Of a DNA stretch of 64,000 nucleotides, positions 13,092-20,864 are shown piece after piece. Each line of letters starts with the position of its first letter. Within the stretch, counting starts at the first letter, position 1. The position numbers and the translations under genes were made by a program. The notes beneath the pieces were generated by a model. The model had not been told where the DNA came from. It did not search any database and worked only from the letters and a program-made list of their open reading frames with translations. Source of the stretch: Cryobacterium psychrotolerans (GTDB lineage Bacteria; Actinomycetota; Actinomycetes; Actinomycetales; Microbacteriaceae); contig NZ_FNFU01000004.1 of assembly GCF_900101115.1 (NCBI RefSeq), positions 1-64,000 of the forward strand, given 5' to 3'.

Positions 13092-13985
13092 CTAGCTCAT
13101 GCGGCCGGCGAAATCGCGCAGCCAGGGGCGAAGGTCCGGACCCAGGTCGTCGCGATCCACGGCGAGCTGGATGATGGCCTTGATGTAGTCGAGCCGGTCG
13201 CCCGTGTCGTAGCGTCGGCCGCGGAAAATCACGCCGTACACTCCCCCGGTCTCCTCCGGGGTGATAGCCATTTCCTGCAGCGCGTCGGTGAGCTGGATTT
13301 CGTTTCCCTTGCCCGGCTTGGTGTGCTCGAGCACGTCGAACACCTCCGGCCGGAGCACGTAGCGCCCGATGATGGCGAGGTTCGAAGGGGCGTCGGCGGC
13401 GCTGGGCTTCTCGACCAGGCCGGTCACGCGCACGACGTCGGGATCGTCGGTCTCTTCGATCGCGGCGGCACCATACATGTGGATCTGCGACGGGTCCACC
13501 TCCATCAAGGCGACAATGCTGGCGTTGCGCTTGTCCTGTTCGTGCAGCATCTTGCCCAGCAGCGGGTCGCGGGCGTCGATGATGTCGTCGCCGAGGAGAA
13601 CGGCGAAGGGTGCCCGGCCGACGTGCATCTTCGCGCGCAGGATGGCGTGGCCGAGGCCCAGGGGGTCGCCCTGGCGCACGTAGTGCATGTCGGCCAGATC
13701 GGTGGATTCGTTGACCTTGGCCAGTTTGGTCAGGTCACCCTTGCGTGCGAGCAGGTCTTCCAGCTCGGTCATCCGGTCGAAGTGGTTCTCGAGGGAGTTC
13801 TTGTTGCGTCCGGTGATCATCAGGACGTCGTGCAGCCCCGCCGCGACCGCCTCTTCGACGACGTACTGGATGGCCGGCTTGTCGACAACGGGCAGCATCT
13901 CCTTCGGCATCGCTTTGGTTGCCGGCAGGAATCGTGTGCCGAGTCCTGCTGCAGGAATGACGGCCTTGGTTATAGGGGTGCCCAT
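13092..13985 (-). CDS. galU: UTP--glucose-1-phosphate uridylyltransferase
   Basis: A 297-residue enzyme, the usual length for bacterial GalU. It makes UDP-glucose from UTP and glucose-1-phosphate for cell-wall and glycolipid sugars. The nucleotide-binding motif GLGTRFLPATKAMPKEMLP is near residue 13, and VEKP and IIGRYVLRPEVFDVL follow in the family order. The start is the ATG at 13985; the frame extends upstream but would cross the divergent 5-FTHF cyclo-ligase gene, whose ATG is only 33 bp away. The two genes therefore share a very short bidirectional promoter region. Confidence 0.95.
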   Translation of the reverse strand: MGTPITKAVIPAAGLGTRFLPATKAMPKEMLPVVDKPAIQYVVEEAVAAGLHDVLMITGRNKNSLENHFDRMTELEDLLARKGDLTKLAKVNESTDLADMHYVRQGDPLGLGHAILRAKMHVGRAPFAVLLGDDIIDARDPLLGKMLHEQDKRNASIVALMEVDPSQIHMYGAAAIEETDDPDVVRVTGLVEKPSAADAPSNLAIIGRYVLRPEVFDVLEHTKPGKGNEIQLTDALQEMAITPEETGGVYGVIFRGRRYDTGDRLDYIKAIIQLAVDRDDLGPDLRPWLRDFAGRMS

Positions 13986-14018
13986 GGGGTCAAGGGTATC
14001 GGCATCTAGGATGACTTT

Positions 14019-14597
14019 ATGGACTCCGACATCCCTCACCGAAAGCGGGCGCTCCGCGCCGAGTTGCGGGAGCGCCGTCAGAACATGACTTCGGTCGAGC
14101 GAGAGGCCGCGACTGCGGGTCTCACCGAGAACCTGCAGAGCCTCGCCATCGACCTGTCGGCCCGGTCGATTTCGTGTTACCTCTCCTCCCGCACCGAACC
14201 CAATACCCGCCCCTTCGTGAACTGGGCGGAGGCCGACGGCATCCGTGTCCTGTTCCCGGTGTCGCGCGAAGACGGGCTGCTCGACTGGACCGTCGGAGAA
14301 GGCAATGGCGAGACGGAGGGCATCGCCGGGGTTCCGGAGGCCGCCGGCACGCTCCTCGGCCCGATCGCCATCAACGACGTCGACCTGATCATCGTTCCGG
14401 CGGCGGCCGTCGACAGCACCGGCATGCGGATGGGCTGGGGTCGCGGTTATTATGACAAGACCCTCGGCTCCATGGACAAGTGCCCCCCGGTGTACGCCGT
14501 CGTGTTCGACAACGAGTTCGTCGACGAGGTGCCCCGCGAGGTGCACGACCAGCCGGTCAACGGACTGGTCACCCCCACGAGAATCATCTCGTTCTAA
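14019..14597 (+). CDS. 5-formyltetrahydrofolate cyclo-ligase
   Basis: A 192-residue cytosolic enzyme that converts 5-formyl-THF to 5,10-methenyl-THF using ATP. The defining C-terminal motif GMRMGWGRGYYDK is near residue 137, and the N-terminal RKRALRAELRERR basic helix is typical. It is divergent from galU and 48 bp upstream of the FmdB-like gene on the same strand. The start at ATG 14019 gives a family-length protein. Confidence 0.93.
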   Translation: MDSDIPHRKRALRAELRERRQNMTSVEREAATAGLTENLQSLAIDLSARSISCYLSSRTEPNTRPFVNWAEADGIRVLFPVSREDGLLDWTVGEGNGETEGIAGVPEAAGTLLGPIAINDVDLIIVPAAAVDSTGMRMGWGRGYYDKTLGSMDKCPPVYAVVFDNEFVDEVPREVHDQPVNGLVTPTRIISF

Positions 14598-14645
14598 GAC
14601 CCCTGGCCAGCATTTCGCTCGCCGTTCCATCAGCTGGAGATTGAC

Positions 14646-15020
14646 GTGCCCACTTACTCGTACCGTTGCACGGAGTGCGACACCGCCTTCGACATCCAAC
14701 AGTCCTTCAGCGACAGCTCACTGACCGTGTGCCCCACCTGCCAGGGCAAGCTGCGCAAGGTGTATTCCGCGATCGGGGTGAGCTTCACCGGTTCCGGCTT
14801 CTACCGCAATGACGCCAGGGCGGAAGCCACTGCGTCCCGGGACACGAGGTCAGGCGCGAAGAAGGCGGCCGACAAGGCTCCGGAGAAGGCGTCCGAGAAG
14901 CCGGCGAAGGCTGCCGGCGAGAAGTCGTCGGCCGCGCCCGCCGCCACGCAGAGCAAGCCGTCCGCCAGTGTCTCGCCGACCACGTCGAGCACGGGCTCCT
15001 CTGCCCCGAAAAAACCGTAG
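14646..15020 (+). CDS. FmdB-family zinc-ribbon protein
   Basis: A 124-residue protein with a GTG start. The first 50 residues form the FmdB/CxxC-CxxC regulatory domain with zinc ligands Cys8, Cys11, Cys29 and Cys32. The rest is a low-complexity Ala/Lys/Ser/Pro tail without structure. Members of this family are small putative regulators; their target is not established. It ends 26 bp before mscL and is likely co-transcribed with it. Confidence 0.85.
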   Translation: MPTYSYRCTECDTAFDIQQSFSDSSLTVCPTCQGKLRKVYSAIGVSFTGSGFYRNDARAEATASRDTRSGAKKAADKAPEKASEKPAKAAGEKSSAAPAATQSKPSASVSPTTSSTGSSAPKKP

Positions 15021-15046
15021 TGGAACGCTTTGAGAGAGGTTCGATC

Positions 15047-15487
15047 ATGATCAAGGGCTTCAGGGACTTCATCATGCGCGGCAATGTGATCGACCTCGCG
15101 GTCGCCGTTGTCATTGGCGCGGCATTCACGGCGGTCGTGAATGCGATCGTGACGGGGATCTTCAACCCCCTGATCGCGACGCTCTTCAACGCCGAAAGCC
15201 TGGCCGAGTCCATGATCGTGGAGCTGCCGGGCGGGGCGAAGATGTCCTTCGGGCTCGTGCTCGCCGCGATCATCACCTTCCTGCTGATTGCGGCCGTGGT
15301 GTATTTCGTCTTCGTGCTCCCGCTCAACAAGATGAAGGAAGCCCAGGAGCGCCGCCGAGCCGCCGGCGTCCCTGCCGCCGCGGAAGCCGTCCCTGCGACC
15401 GAGCTCGACCTGCTCGCCGAGATCCGCGACCTCCTCGCGTCGAGCGCGAGCGAGGCCGCCAGCGAAGGCCCCAAGCACACGCTCTAA
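15047..15487 (+). CDS. mscL: Large-conductance mechanosensitive channel MscL
   Basis: A 146-residue homopentameric channel that opens under membrane tension to release solutes during osmotic downshock. The amphipathic N-terminus MIKGFRDFIMRGNVIDLAVA and first helix VVIGAAFTAVVNAIV are clear. The second helix FGLVLAAIITFLLIAAVVYFV is followed by the cytoplasmic PLNKMKEAQERR helix. The C-terminus ends with ELDLLAEIRDLLAS, the usual bundle. The ATG at 15047 is preceded by GAGAGAGG; the longer frame from 15020 is not the start. Confidence 0.95.
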   Translation: MIKGFRDFIMRGNVIDLAVAVVIGAAFTAVVNAIVTGIFNPLIATLFNAESLAESMIVELPGGAKMSFGLVLAAIITFLLIAAVVYFVFVLPLNKMKEAQERRRAAGVPAAAEAVPATELDLLAEIRDLLASSASEAASEGPKHTL

Positions 15488-15766: not shown

Positions 15767-18700
15767 TCAGTCGCGGGCAGGCACGACCGCGATCGGAGCC
15801 GTCGCCAGCTCGGCAGCGGGGCCACCCCGCTTGACCCCGGCGAGAGTCGCCACCCGCTGGGCGACGGCATCCGGGTTGCTGAAGAGTTCGAAGCTGTGCA
15901 CCCTCAGGTAGTGCCAGCCCAGCCGGCGCAGCACCTCGGGGCGCAGCCGGAGCGACTCGCGCAGGCTCGCCCGGCCGACGACGGCGTCCGTTTCAACGAC
16001 GACCGCACGGCCGGCGTGCGAGGCCGCGAGCGCGAGCTTGCCGCGGTGGCCGAGGGAGACGGTCAGGCCCAGCCGTTCGAGCCGGCCGGCCAGGTCGACC
16101 AGCATCGACTCACTCGGGTCGGGCGCCTGGTTCTCCCTGGCGCGCGCCTCGGTTTCGCTGAGCACCTGGGAGAGGGCCAGGATGCCGTGGCGCTGGCGGT
16201 CCGCGTCGATGTCCTCGGGCCGGAAGCAGGAGACGATGTCCATCGCACGCCTGGCACGGGTCATGCCGATGGCGAGCAACCGTTCGCCGCCCGGCTCGCC
16301 GAGGGACCCGAAGTTGGAGAGCAGCCGGCCGTGCGGGGTGCGCCCGTAGCCGATCGAGAAGATGACCCGGTCGCGGCTCTGCGCGACGGCCTGCTCGAGG
16401 GTGAGCACGGTGAACGGCTCGGCGCGGTCCTTGAGGATGAAGTCGGAGAGGTCGGTGCGCTTGGAGAACGCGGCCAGGACCGCCTGGTGCACCCGCACGG
16501 AATGGCGGGCGCTCGCGGTGATGACCATGAGCGACTCGCGGGGGCGCTTGACCGCGTGGTCGAGGACCAGTTCGACGACCTTGGCGACCTCGGCGTCGAC
16601 ACTCTCGATGGCGCCGCTCTCCGCATCCGGCATGCCGCGGCCGCCGGCGACGTAGCTGAGGCTGAGGCTCCCGTGGCCGAGGAAGCTGCCGGCCCAGGGC
16701 AGGGAGTCGATGCGGCCGCCGTAGAAGCGGTGGTTGACGATCTCGGCGAGGTCTTCTCCCCCGGCGCGGTAGCTGCGGGTGAGGGTGAGGGTCGGCAGCA
16801 GTTCGCCGAGGCGCGCCAGCGCCGAGTCGGCGTGCAGGGCGTCCACGTTGTGCGGTTCGGCGTCCCCGGATTCGCCGATGCCGGTCTCGAACGGTGAGGG
16901 CGTCTGGGTGACCGGGTCACCGAAGGCCACCACCTGCTTGCCGCGGCGAACCGCCCCGACGTTCTCGGCGAAGGTGGTCGCACCGGCGTCGACGAGCAGC
17001 ACGGTGTCGAAGCTGAGCCGGTCGTCCAGGTCGGCGACCTCATACGGGGAGGCAAGCCACACGGGCGCCAGCACCCGGCCGAGGTGGGGGGCGGCATCGT
17101 GCAGCCTGGTCGGCGTGGCGCGGCCGGAGCGCAGCAGCCGGCGCAGGTGGTCGGCCTCCTCCGGCCAGTCGACGACTCCGATCTTCCACGTCTCGGCGAG
17201 CAGCCAGGCCACCAGCTGGCCGGTGGCGGATGCGTGCGCCTCGTCGACGAGCCGGAAGTCGGCTTCGAGGCGGTCGAGCACCTGCGTGTTCGCGTTCAGG
17301 AGGGCCTTGTTGTCGCTGAGCATCGCCTCGAGCACGGACTGCCACCAGGCGAGCTCGAGTTCGTCGGCGACATCCTTCTCCGACACGTGACGCTGTGCCA
17401 GGTCGGTCATCAGCGGGTCGAGGTTGTGCTCGCGCAGGGTGGAGAGCAGCGCGGTGCGCTCGTGCAGGTTCGCGAGCACTTCGCTTTCCGCGGCCAGCCC
17501 GGCGACGGTGTAGATGAGAGCCTTGATCGGACGGTTGGCGAGCATTCGGGTGGTCCCCGCGGCGCCGAGCGGAATGTCGAGCAGGCCCAGGTCTTCGGCG
17601 ACGCGCTGGTAGGCCACGTGCACGTCGTTGATGCCGACGGGGACCTCGGGGGTGGAACCCGCGACGACGTACCGCTGCCAGAGGGTGCGCTGCTGCTGGA
17701 TGCGGCGGAGGCTCTCGTTCATGTCGCTGACGTGCACGCCCGGCCGCAGGTACTCGTCCGCGAGCTTGCGCAGCCGGCGACGGCTGCTGGAGGGCATGTC
17801 GGGCGAGTCGCGCCGCGCCGAGGTGGCGGCGATCAGCTCGGTGAGCGGCCGGTCGTACACGGCCGGCTGGAACCGGTCGAGCGTTTCGCGGATGTCGAGC
17901 AGCAGCCGCAGGTAGATGCCCAGTTCCGCGATGGTCTCGAAGGGACGCAGCCGGGTCTGGCCGACCAGCCCCGACGCACGTTCGAGCAGGCGCGGCAGTT
18001 CGATCTGGTTGACCCGTTTGGCCAGCTGGTGCGCCGACGACGCCTCGGCGGTCGAGGTGAACGTCGCGCCGTACCAGGGCGAGTCGCCCGGGCCGTAGCG
18101 GAACTCGCCGAGCGCCGCCGCCTTGATCAGGGTCGCCGCGGCGGCCCCGCGGTTGTGCGCGAGCCGTTCGAGTGCGCCGCGGTCCAGCCGCGCGATCGTC
18201 GAGGGCGGGGACGGCAGCTGGGCGAGCCGGGCCAGTTCGCCGAGCGCGTCGAGCACGGACACGCCGAGCGCCGCGTCGCGCCGGGACAGGGCCGATCGGT
18301 AGTCGAGCAGAACCTTGCGCAGGCGCACGAGCGCGTCGTCGACGTCGCCCACGCGGGGCTGGGTGGCCTTCTCGTTGCGCGTGATCGACTGCACGAGGTC
18401 GCGGCGCAGGTTGCGCGGCGTGACGGCTGCTCCGGGGAGGCCGACCTGCACGAGTCGGTGGGCGATGCCGTCGAGGCTGGACCGGCGGGCGCTGACCACG
18501 AGCACGCGTTTGTGCTGGGAGATCAGCGCGCCGATGGCATTGACGATCGTCTGCGTGCCGCCCGTGCCCGGCAGCGTCTTCACGACGAGCGAGTTGCCGG
18601 CGGCGATCTGCGCGATGACGTTTTCCTGCTCCGGGTCGGCGTCGAGCAACAGGATGTCGGTGGCCGGCGGGCGCACGTCCTGGCCGATCGGGACGACCGG

Positions 18701-19531
18701 GTTGTACGCGGTCTCGACGGCGCGGCGGGCGGAGGGGTTTCCGGCGACCGCGTCGAGCAGCGGGTGGTCCAGCCGGGCGATGTCGGCGGCGAGGGCTCGC
18801 CCGACGTCGGCGAAGGAGGAGACCACCAGTCGCGGCACGACGTTGAACCAGGGCAGGTGCGAGGTGAGGCCGCGGAGCCGGTCGATCACCGGCTGGGGCT
18901 TGAACGCGCCGTTGGTGACCGCGAGCGCCACGAAGGCGTCCGCGTCGAGGGTGATCTGGAACTGGTCGTGCAGGGCGCGGGCCAGTTCCGGGTTGAGGAA
19001 CGGCTGGCCCTTGAGCTTGAGTTCGAAGTCGCGCCCGTAGCGCCGGATCGCCAGCGGACGCAGCAGGATGGGCGCGCTGAACTCGGCCTCGCCGTTTTTC
19101 CACTGGGCCAGGCCGATGGCCAGGTTGACCGATTCGATCCCGCGCATGGAGCGCAGCTCGATGCCCTTCTGGGTGATCTCGTTGGCGGCCAGGCGGGCGT
19201 TGCGCAGCGCGAGCTCGTCGCGGATCAGGTTGGAGAGCAGGGTGGTCTTGCCGGTGATGAACTGCGGCAGGCCACCGGGGTGCGTGGCGCTGAGCTCGAT
19301 GCGCGTGCGCGTGCCGTCGTTGAAGTGCAGCAGCGGGGACCGGCCGCCGACCGCGGCGAGTTCGTCGCGCCAGCGCTGCCAGGTCGGCTCGGCGATATTG
19401 CCGGCCACCAGGGACGGATCGCCGAGGCTCACGGAGTGCGGGGAGGTCGAATTCGGCGCGTCGGAGCCGGACGCATCCGTGTACTCCGACAGGATGCCGT
19501 CGTCATCTTGTTTCTTATCGAGGCGCCACAC
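15767..19531 (-). CDS. SF1 helicase-like protein with degenerate ATPase and nuclease motifs
   Basis: A 1254-residue protein laid out like DUF4011/UPF1-type SF1 helicases with a C-terminal MTES_1575-type endonuclease-fold domain. The Walker A equivalent at residues 319-328 reads TLPGTGGTQT: the first Gly is Thr and the catalytic Lys (residue 325) is Gly. The Walker B/DEAx region (about 843-852) reads LLVDAGATTF, lacking the Glu. Motif III is GDPVTQTP (871-878) in place of GDPxQLPP. The C-terminal domain (about 1150-1254) keeps VVVETDA and EVLRRLGWHYLRVHS but has LALA where active relatives have an IDLA aspartate. It is probably a nucleic-acid-binding pseudoenzyme (inference). It starts with GTG and no RBS; see the promoter entry. 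Confidence 0.8.
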   Translation of the reverse strand: MWRLDKKQDDDGILSEYTDASGSDAPNSTSPHSVSLGDPSLVAGNIAEPTWQRWRDELAAVGGRSPLLHFNDGTRTRIELSATHPGGLPQFITGKTTLLSNLIRDELALRNARLAANEITQKGIELRSMRGIESVNLAIGLAQWKNGEAEFSAPILLRPLAIRRYGRDFELKLKGQPFLNPELARALHDQFQITLDADAFVALAVTNGAFKPQPVIDRLRGLTSHLPWFNVVPRLVVSSFADVGRALAADIARLDHPLLDAVAGNPSARRAVETAYNPVVPIGQDVRPPATDILLLDADPEQENVIAQIAAGNSLVVKTLPGTGGTQTIVNAIGALISQHKRVLVVSARRSSLDGIAHRLVQVGLPGAAVTPRNLRRDLVQSITRNEKATQPRVGDVDDALVRLRKVLLDYRSALSRRDAALGVSVLDALGELARLAQLPSPPSTIARLDRGALERLAHNRGAAAATLIKAAALGEFRYGPGDSPWYGATFTSTAEASSAHQLAKRVNQIELPRLLERASGLVGQTRLRPFETIAELGIYLRLLLDIRETLDRFQPAVYDRPLTELIAATSARRDSPDMPSSSRRRLRKLADEYLRPGVHVSDMNESLRRIQQQRTLWQRYVVAGSTPEVPVGINDVHVAYQRVAEDLGLLDIPLGAAGTTRMLANRPIKALIYTVAGLAAESEVLANLHERTALLSTLREHNLDPLMTDLAQRHVSEKDVADELELAWWQSVLEAMLSDNKALLNANTQVLDRLEADFRLVDEAHASATGQLVAWLLAETWKIGVVDWPEEADHLRRLLRSGRATPTRLHDAAPHLGRVLAPVWLASPYEVADLDDRLSFDTVLLVDAGATTFAENVGAVRRGKQVVAFGDPVTQTPSPFETGIGESGDAEPHNVDALHADSALARLGELLPTLTLTRSYRAGGEDLAEIVNHRFYGGRIDSLPWAGSFLGHGSLSLSYVAGGRGMPDAESGAIESVDAEVAKVVELVLDHAVKRPRESLMVITASARHSVRVHQAVLAAFSKRTDLSDFILKDRAEPFTVLTLEQAVAQSRDRVIFSIGYGRTPHGRLLSNFGSLGEPGGERLLAIGMTRARRAMDIVSCFRPEDIDADRQRHGILALSQVLSETEARARENQAPDPSESMLVDLAGRLERLGLTVSLGHRGKLALAASHAGRAVVVETDAVVGRASLRESLRLRPEVLRRLGWHYLRVHSFELFSNPDAVAQRVATLAGVKRGGPAAELATAPIAVVPARD

Positions 19532-19601: not shown

Positions 19602-20618
19602 TCAGAGCCAGTTGCGCTTCTTGAAGATGACGTAGAGGCCCACGCCCATCCCGACCATCAGGGTGACGGCGAACGGATAGCCCCACTCCCAGAGAAGTTC
19701 GGGCATGTGCCGGAAGTTCATGCCGTAGATCGTGCCGATGAGCGTGGGCGCGAACAGGATGGCCGCCCAGCCGGAGATCTTCTTAACCTCTTCGCTCTGC
19801 GCCAGGCTCGTCTCGGAGAGGCTGCGGGTTTCATCGTTCTGCCGCTGGTTCACCAGGGTGCTGTGCACGGTGAGCGCGTTGGACAGCAGCTCCCGGAACG
19901 AGTCTCCCCGTTCCACCACGCGGATGGTGTGGTCGAGCACGTCGCGCAGGTGGTGGCGGATTTCCACGTCGACGTTGCGGGTCTCGAACCCGCGCTGCAG
20001 GGACTCCATCATGCCCACGAGCGGCTGGGTCGCCCGCTGGAACTCGATCACCTCGCGGGAGAGCGCGTAAATGCGGCGGGACACCTCGGGGTCGCCGGTG
20101 AAGAGCTGGTCCTCGATCTCATCGATGTCGTTCTCGAGGCCCGCGACGACGGGCCCGTATTCGTCGACGATCTGGTCGAGGATCGCGTAGAGCACGGCCT
20201 CGGGCCCGAGGGCCAGGAGCGCCGGGTCCTCCTCCATGCGGCGGCGCACGGTCGCGAGGTTGGGGGCCTCGGCGTGACGGATGGTCAGCACGAAATCCGG
20301 CCCGACAAAGAGGTGCACTTCGCCGAACTCGACCCGCTCCTCCGCGTCGATGTACCGCGCCGGGCGCAGCACGAGGAAGGCGATGTCGTCGAAGCGTTCG
20401 AGCTTGGACCGCTGGTGGCCCTTCAAGGCATCCTCGACCGGCAGGTGGTGCAGATTGAACTCCTCGGCGACGGAGCGCACTTCCTGCTCGGTCGGCCGGT
20501 ACATGCCGATCCAGGCGAACCCCGCGTTCGCCTTGAGGACTTCGTAGGTCTCATCGAGCGAGGCCGGCGTCGCCGCCCGTCGGCCGTCCACGTAGATCGC
20601 ATTGTCGATCAGCGCCAT
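19602..20618 (-). CDS. corA: CorA-family magnesium/cobalt transporter
   Basis: A 338-residue CorA channel. The large cytoplasmic funnel domain (1-270) includes the long helix SDSFRELLSNALTVHSTLVN-like region. Two C-terminal membrane helices follow, with the signature YGMNFRHMPEL between them and the basic KKRNWL end. GMN is the selectivity motif for hydrated Mg2+. The start is the ATG at 20618, preceded by GAAGGAGAACCG; the upstream frame extension is not coding. Confidence 0.94.
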   Translation of the reverse strand: MALIDNAIYVDGRRAATPASLDETYEVLKANAGFAWIGMYRPTEQEVRSVAEEFNLHHLPVEDALKGHQRSKLERFDDIAFLVLRPARYIDAEERVEFGEVHLFVGPDFVLTIRHAEAPNLATVRRRMEEDPALLALGPEAVLYAILDQIVDEYGPVVAGLENDIDEIEDQLFTGDPEVSRRIYALSREVIEFQRATQPLVGMMESLQRGFETRNVDVEIRHHLRDVLDHTIRVVERGDSFRELLSNALTVHSTLVNQRQNDETRSLSETSLAQSEEVKKISGWAAILFAPTLIGTIYGMNFRHMPELLWEWGYPFAVTLMVGMGVGLYVIFKKRNWL

Positions 20619-20698
20619 CGGTTCTCCTTCGCTCGCGTACCAGTGTCGCAGGGGCGGGGCGAACTGTGGTGCAAGCCGGGCGGGCCGGGCATGCGAAA

Positions 20699-20723
20699 GG
20701 GGGCCAAACCCGAATTGGCCCCC
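20699..20723 (-). terminator. Hairpin terminator after acyl-CoA dehydrogenase gene
   Basis: A perfect 9-bp stem (GGGGGCCAA/TTGGCCCCC) with a 7-nt loop, 142 bp past the stop of the minus-strand dehydrogenase and 81 bp before the corA start. There is no T-tract, so confidence is moderate. The rest of the 246-bp interval shows nothing I recognise beyond the corA ribosome-binding site. Confidence 0.6.
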
Positions 20724-20864
20724 CTCGCAATTCCTGGCCAGGGTGACAACCCGAATGTCTCCTGAACCGGCGATGCAGCTCGAGGAGCGTGCATCGTGTT
20801 CCATAGTCTGCGGCAGCGCCGACGCCTCCGGTAGTCAGCTCTTTGGGGGACCGGCGGTCGCGCG

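Follow-up and report, generated by a model that had tools for sequence, protein, structure and literature searches.

A question is raised by one long gene of Cryobacterium psychrotolerans, namely why a bacterium would keep, at full length, a helicase-like protein with a nuclease-like end in which the residues expected to carry out both activities have been replaced. The gene lies in a window of 64,000 nucleotides (positions 1 to 64,000 of contig NZ_FNFU01000004.1, assembly GCF_900101115.1). A first-pass annotation, made from this DNA alone, had described an intact frame of 1254 residues and had viewed the product as a pseudo-helicase and pseudo-nuclease kept by selection. The open reading frame (ORF) and its translation bear out the frame, which covers exactly positions 15767..19531 and runs from a GTG start at 19531 on the minus strand, the strand having been left out of that annotation. 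On balance it seems probable that this is a mostly vertically inherited core gene, that it descends from an ATP-driven superfamily 1 (SF1) helicase of the DUF4011/UPF1 type joined to a Vsr-like nuclease, and that catalysis was lost in place, leaving a protein that likely binds nucleic acid and holds a partner.

The losses affect the ATP site and the nuclease site alike. SF1 helicases require the lysine of Walker A and the DE pair of Walker B for hydrolysis. In the alignment with canonical relatives, the Walker A position, which in SF1 enzymes takes the form GxxxxGK[S/T], falls at residues 319-328 (18548..18577; this and the other features of the gene are on the minus strand), where TLPGTGGTQT is read, Lys325 having become Gly and the first Gly of the motif Thr319, as had been reported. 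Walker B (motif II) is represented by FDTVLLVDAG (residues 841-850; 16982..17011); the earlier claim that it is degraded stands, in that Asp847 has become Val and the Glu is gone, and needs rewording only in that the Glu column holds Asp848, ‘DE’ having turned into ‘VD’. Motif III reads FGDPVTQTP (residues 870-878; 16898..16924) and thus contains the annotated GDPVTQTP, with Thr in the Gln column at 875. The C-terminal domain, nuclease-like and of the Vsr/MTES_1575 type (residues 1143-1235; 15827..16105), carries KLALAA as its nuclease-site motif, so that A1167 stands where the active-site Asp of IDLA is expected, again as annotated; E1180 and D1182 are kept, and Ser takes the place of R1193. 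Misreading of the frame as a source of these losses is ruled out by the ORF, translation and substitution-rate data.

Isolated decay of a single copy is likewise ruled out, by comparison across the family. The comparison used 133 Microbacteriaceae sequences (that of the window, 52 from genome samples and 80 from titled loci; 115 after removal of those at least 98% alike), which are mostly the better matches and hence a biased draw. Position 325 is Gly in 110 of them, Ala in 7, Ser in 4, Tyr in 4, Val in 3, Leu in 2, Ile in 2 and Thr in 1; position 847 is Val, Leu, Ile, Ala or Met; position 848 is Asp in 132 and Gly in 1; and position 875 is Thr, Ile, Leu or Val. Lys325, Asp847, Glu848 and the Gln of motif III are therefore each found in 0 of 133, and Asp1167 in a single sequence; canonical GKT and DE residues in orthologues, which the first-pass annotation had set beforehand as the observation that would overturn its view, did not occur. 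Other residues of the site are held: R922, in the motif IV region (residues 917-926; 16754..16783), and D872 in all 133, Q302 in 132, R1094, in the motif VI region GMTRARRA (residues 1089-1096; 16244..16267), in 131 and T326 in 129, with G322, G324 and D848 likewise kept in at least 129.

The ratio of nonsynonymous to synonymous substitution rates (dN/dS), a check that had been proposed at the outset, has a median of 0.158 and a range of 0.015-0.313 over 366 pairs (protein identity 80-99.5%, dS 0.1-1.2) that are not independent of one another. The corresponding ratio of polymorphic sites (pN/pS) is lowest, at 0.052, for the Walker A stretch (residues 312-335), followed by 0.088 for residues 841-856 and 0.115-0.227 for larger blocks within residues 56-1235; the ends of the protein are loose (0.40 for residues 1-55, 0.67 for residues 1236-1254). 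When 1245 windows of ten residues were ranked by column entropy over the 115 sequences, just 3 were more conserved than Walker A, 26 more than motif IV, 67 more than motif III, 72 more than Walker B and 181 more than motif VI; the two nuclease-site windows were exceeded by 783 and 1047 and are less conserved than the median. The earlier view is refined by this result: the altered stretches of the ATP site are strongly conserved, and those of the nuclease site are not. The ranks and the pN/pS values suggest that selection fixed the ATP site in its rebuilt form and released the nuclease site; since the altered P-loop is itself under strong selection, it probably serves, in the Microbacteriaceae, as a structural element or as the binding site of a ligand that is not hydrolysed. 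With the same losses fixed across the family under purifying selection, simple decay is disfavoured, as had been argued from the frame without stops.

The gene is retained almost without exception. In the family sample a match (E up to 0.001) was found in 149 of 150 genomes, in 137 of 137 good ones and in 85 of 85 genera, a weak match (G124, 2.5e-32) being counted among the 149; the sole genome without a match (G094) is an 82%-complete assembly. Genomes of 0.9-1.8 Mb keep it, including G015 (contig of 927,303 bases) and G030 (contig of 1,760,810 bases). In the very small genome G015 the homologue (L036/L214) reads TTPGAQVTQA at the Walker A position and adjoins a gene for 5-formyltetrahydrofolate cyclo-ligase (5-FCL). 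Within the biased set of 133 all frames are at least 1150 residues long; a few family assemblies carry the gene in pieces at contig ends, and six of the listed family matches cross a stop codon, with open frames that are still 1218-1580 residues long. In the order sample, matches at 1e-10 occur in 292 of 297 genomes and in 279 of 281 good ones, the orthology of the locus not having been verified per genome, and in the class sample the A2 profile at 1e-30 matches 40 of 197, of which 16, the genome of C. psychrotolerans included, belong to the same order. Among the titled loci, which are the best 80 of at least 555 confirmed stretches, the closest are those of Cryobacterium sp. MP_M3 and PH31-AA6, with 88% identity in the best segment; going by titles and genera, we take the 80 to be Microbacteriaceae or metagenome bins near them. 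The C. psychrotolerans genome itself (3.25 Mb in 45 contigs) holds one full copy and one distant relative, L002 (G000:C9:1877-3214). The latter lies near a contig end, is 880 residues long and N-terminally short, resembles ProA and PDC-S37, and has canonical DEASQ, GDQRQLPP and IDI motifs, its Walker A part being absent. Because the catalytic residues are lost, yet nearly every sampled member of the family retains the protein, mostly at the same chromosomal spot, it probably has a non-catalytic job that is needed.

What kind of protein this is can be judged in part from profiles and in part from a predicted structure. Every Pfam and NCBIfam match falls below its curated cut-off. Those to Pfam are weak: MTES_1575 (PF18741) at residues 1174-1228 with 24 bits (cut-off 38.2), against 72.3 bits for the canonical homologue L066; DUF4011 (PF13195) at residues 101-185 (18977..19231) with 20.9 bits, just below the cut-off of 22.2; and AAA_11 at residues 300-362 with 16.6 bits (cut-off 27). 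A phmmer search of the protein against the sequences of the PDB gave no match up to E = 1. An AlphaFold model of residues 50-1240, built with 64 Microbacteriaceae sequences, has a mean predicted local distance difference test score (pLDDT) of 83.9 and a predicted template modelling score (pTM) of 0.68, and in this model the two-domain SF1 fold of the UPF1 type is kept. Foldseek and VIA-align match it to UPF1-type SF1 helicases, led by IGHMBP2 (Z 21.1 over 500 residues, root mean square deviation 4.4 Å) and followed by Dna2 (Z 19.5), UPF1 (Z 18.8; a comparison that the first-pass annotation had suggested), Senataxin (Z 18.7) and Aquarius (4pj3, Z 17.8), in rows that hardly cover the nuclease-like end; RecC and AddB are absent among the rows shown, which excludes neither. 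UPF1, IGHMBP2, Dna2 and Senataxin are ATP-driven. The protein resembles these enzymes in predicted fold, has other residues in place of the Lys, Asp, Glu and Gln of the site, and carries a Vsr-like end in addition.

In the model, a long, mostly helical insert (about residues 400-820; 17072..18334) separates the first helicase motifs from motif II. Across homologues, 35 positions are kept in at least 93% of 87 sequences that lack the Walker A Lys, and G140, W486, R584 and D842 are present in 87 of these 87 and in 15 of 15 Lys-bearing ones. Two of the four, W486 and R584, sit in the insert, where they and L608, W618 and P628 are kept in at least 93% of the former group and in 15 of 15 of the latter; R448, L608 and R714, in or beside the insert, are kept in both groups and differ in both distant paralogues. 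This suggests that a property common to live and dead forms of the locus resides partly in the insert.

Beyond the Microbacteriaceae, homologues with canonical motifs were found. In the larger tree, 17 rows out of 104 carry the Walker A Lys: both rows read in f5 and 12 of 17 in f18, both families of the same order, 1 in f45, outside the order, and 2 distant paralogues. The Lys rows of f5 and f45 and most of those of f18 read GPPGTGKSQT and DEASQ, mostly with IDLA or VDLA. None of the rows read from the tree's 14 further families of the order (f2, f3, f4, f6-f10, f12, f14-f16, f19 and f20) has the Lys, one f3 row (L187) with a Lys one column later (AGPGTDAKTL) and an absent DE motif being scored accordingly. 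The replacement letters differ between families, with PPGSGQTQT or PPGTGQTQT in much of f6, PPGAD or PPGVD in much of f14, and hardly a P-loop in f4; outside the order, Arg replaces Lys in six f38 rows and one f25 row. Those f38 homologues (L155-L157 and L160-L162) read PGTGRTQT or PGSGRTQ[TV], and both f38 loci checked adjoin mscL and a zinc-ribbon gene. Two f18 rows, L221 and L222, are half-degraded, with TPPGTGAS[RQ]T and EES or EEA, and stand between the canonical and dead forms. Judged from these sequences, and from three canonical homologues confirmed to occupy the same chromosomal position, the dead state appears to be the derived one.

The number of times the Lys was lost is a separate matter. 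In the 104-row tree, 75 non-Lys rows group in a single clade that spans 15 families of the order, among them the Microbacteriaceae, with a support of 100 in the Shimodaira-Hasegawa-like approximate likelihood-ratio test (SH-aLRT), and parsimony on the Lys requires 5 changes on this quick tree and 3 on an 83-row tree. Uniting all 87 non-Lys rows is not rejected by the approximately unbiased (AU) test (p 0.08), nor is uniting the 75-row group with L221 and L222 (p 0.225), with L164 and L170 (p 0.482) or with the six f38 rows that have Arg for Lys (p 0.523), the constrained trees being no worse in the last two cases. Several independent losses are thus not established, as these tests leave single-loss groupings standing. 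The trees were built under LG+G4, not a mixture model, with warnings on odd letter make-up and one long branch; they do not include the fragments L176, L181, L186 and L196 or, as a paralogue, L002, of which L181, L186 and L196 also lack the Lys and L176 and L002 have no letters at that column.

The surroundings of the gene tie the dead and live forms together. Downstream of it and convergent lies mscL (15020..15487, plus strand; PF01741), present in 73 of the 80 titled loci, followed by a zinc-ribbon gene, presumably of the FmdB type (14646..15020, plus strand; PF09723; 73 of 80), the 5-FCL gene (14019..14597, plus strand; PF01812; 71 of 80) and galU (13092..13979, minus strand, start not fixed; TIGR01099, 331 bits; 71 of 80); a GNAT gene is found in 68. 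These counts come from fetched flanks, some of them cut by contig ends. The longest ORF for galU, 13092-14699 on the minus strand, is over-extended, the GalU match beginning at residue 243 of 535. Immediately upstream, on the same strand, is a gene for a CorA-type transporter (19602..20804, minus strand; PF01544), which was rejected as an operon partner; it is present in just 22 of the 80 loci and is for that reason probably not a functional partner. In a wider set of 20 loci (17 from other families and 3 from small genomes of family f1), at least one of mscL, zinc ribbon, 5-FCL, galU and GNAT adjoins the homologue in 17. All three canonical loci checked in f5 and f18 have both mscL and the zinc ribbon, and because of these shared neighbours their live forms and the dead forms can be regarded as positional orthologues.

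From these observations a history and a role can be proposed. The ancestor would have been an SF1 helicase of the DUF4011/UPF1 type that was driven by ATP and had a Vsr-like nuclease at its C-terminus; it would have ceased to hydrolyse ATP and to cleave DNA with its chromosomal place unchanged. The present protein would then neither hydrolyse ATP nor unwind or cut nucleic acid; most likely, we infer, its helicase-like core and long helical insert would bind DNA or RNA in single-stranded form and either hold a partner or gate it, perhaps scanning on behalf of an active partner, as the dead helicase domains of RecC and AddB do.

Precedents for such a role exist. In RecC the SF1 helicase and PD-(D/E)xK nuclease domains are both inactivated and a role in Chi recognition has been proposed (PMC1185551), and the inactivated helicase domain of AddB has been described as a scanner (PMC4824097). 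The likeness lies in inactivated domains within a DNA-recognition subunit (both domains in RecC, the helicase-like one in AddB), and binding by the present protein would follow by analogy; unlike these subunits, it is of the UPF1/Dna2-like SF1 type and has no partner gene adjoining. PriA of Deinococcus radiodurans, a pseudohelicase that neither hydrolyses ATP nor unwinds, binds DNA and appears to contact DnaB (PMC4504706). It shares with the protein discussed here a putative lack of hydrolysis, and differs in belonging to another helicase family and in being a known replication-restart factor. Yeast Utp25 is also among the helicases described as dead but used. Core genes of the DUF4011 kind also occur outside this order, since a large one flanks a defence hotspot in Pseudomonas aeruginosa (PMC10250203). 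MTES_1575 itself is another protein, at least 2161 residues long, that combines HEPN, transglutaminase, SF1 helicase, Vsr-type nuclease and wHTH parts (PMC3710099). No description of the present protein was found among titles and abstract openings of the literature on DUF4011 helicases, MTES_1575 and pseudohelicases, a scope that took in few subscription journals.

Of the competing explanations, the one that survives best, doubtful though it is, holds that the altered P-loop binds a nucleotide or another small ligand, the protein acting as a nucleotide-dependent switch with no hydrolysis or a very slow one. The rank and the pN/pS of the Walker A stretch fit such a switch, as does the retention of T326, G322, G324, Q302, D848, D872, R922 and R1094. 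However, the four residues of the site are missing from every one of the 133 sequences, and the pocket can scarcely be made out in the aligned sequences of far relatives such as L188, L173 and L191; as these keep the gene all the same, nucleotide binding is no common need.

It is improbable that the protein is an anti-phage factor of the ProA, Hhe or PDC-S37 kind that, in its dead form, serves for decoy or regulation. The best named models are indeed NCBIfam ProA (298 bits) and PADLOC PDC-S37 (322 bits), strongest over the second half of the protein, and these DUF4011/MTES_1575 helicase-nucleases show significant similarity to it and the same order of DUF4011-like N-terminus, split SF1 core and Vsr-like nuclease end. 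In contrast to them, the catalytic residues of both domains are replaced, and the scores are far below the curated cut-offs (1500 bits for ProA; 144 against 2000 bits for Hhe), the Lys-bearing homologues L062 and L066 themselves reaching just about 800 bits for ProA. The gene also sits at a core locus, sharing a block with mscL, 5-FCL and galU at 71-73 of the 80 titled loci; its almost universal presence, which extends to small genomes, is not what a patchy defence gene would show.

Still less likely is an active ATPase that works through different chemistry, for, in spite of the kept arginines of motifs IV and VI and the carboxylate at 848, no alternative Lys is fixed beside the P-loop, position 318 being Lys in just 97 of 133. 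A neutral leftover of a decaying gene is scarcely credible, since the missing key residues, the substitutions that vary between families and the occasional stop-crossing or split matches are outweighed by long open frames, even across those stops, by the low dN/dS and by the near-universal retention.

Several points nevertheless weigh against a catalytically dead scaffold as the sole answer. With T326, D848, D872, R922 and R1094 retained, the protein might still bind a nucleotide or hydrolyse it slowly, and no conserved neighbour is a clear partner; the three exceptions among the 20 wider loci, in f7, f12 and f45, have none of the neighbour genes. Nor is a resection machine obviously short of a subunit, as two large ORFs with PDDEXK_1 domains (1122 and 1238 residues; G000:C35:10193-14280), possibly a helicase-nuclease pair of the AdnAB type, lie next to each other in this genome. 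A third PDDEXK_1 ORF, of 1285 residues, lies on contig C32. Finally, the remainder of the pocket has disappeared too in some distant families of the order, and a single role may not fit all.

Beyond the non-catalytic scaffold proposed for this family, a broader scenario can be put forward tentatively, in which a core gene handed down at a single chromosomal place had its catalysis switched off in most of the order while the protein remained indispensable. The switch-off may have occurred more than once, given that canonical, half-degraded and dead forms are met within one family. In the Microbacteriaceae the ATP site would then have been rebuilt to bind something else, and the protein might contribute in a general, non-catalytic way to maintaining the genome or RNA. 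Dead helicases that remain in use are already known; in the present case one appears to belong to the core proteins of an entire bacterial family and is retained even by genomes close to 1 Mb. The canonical homologues at the same locus in related families provide a natural before-and-after series from motor to non-motor, and the gene marks a widely conserved protein.

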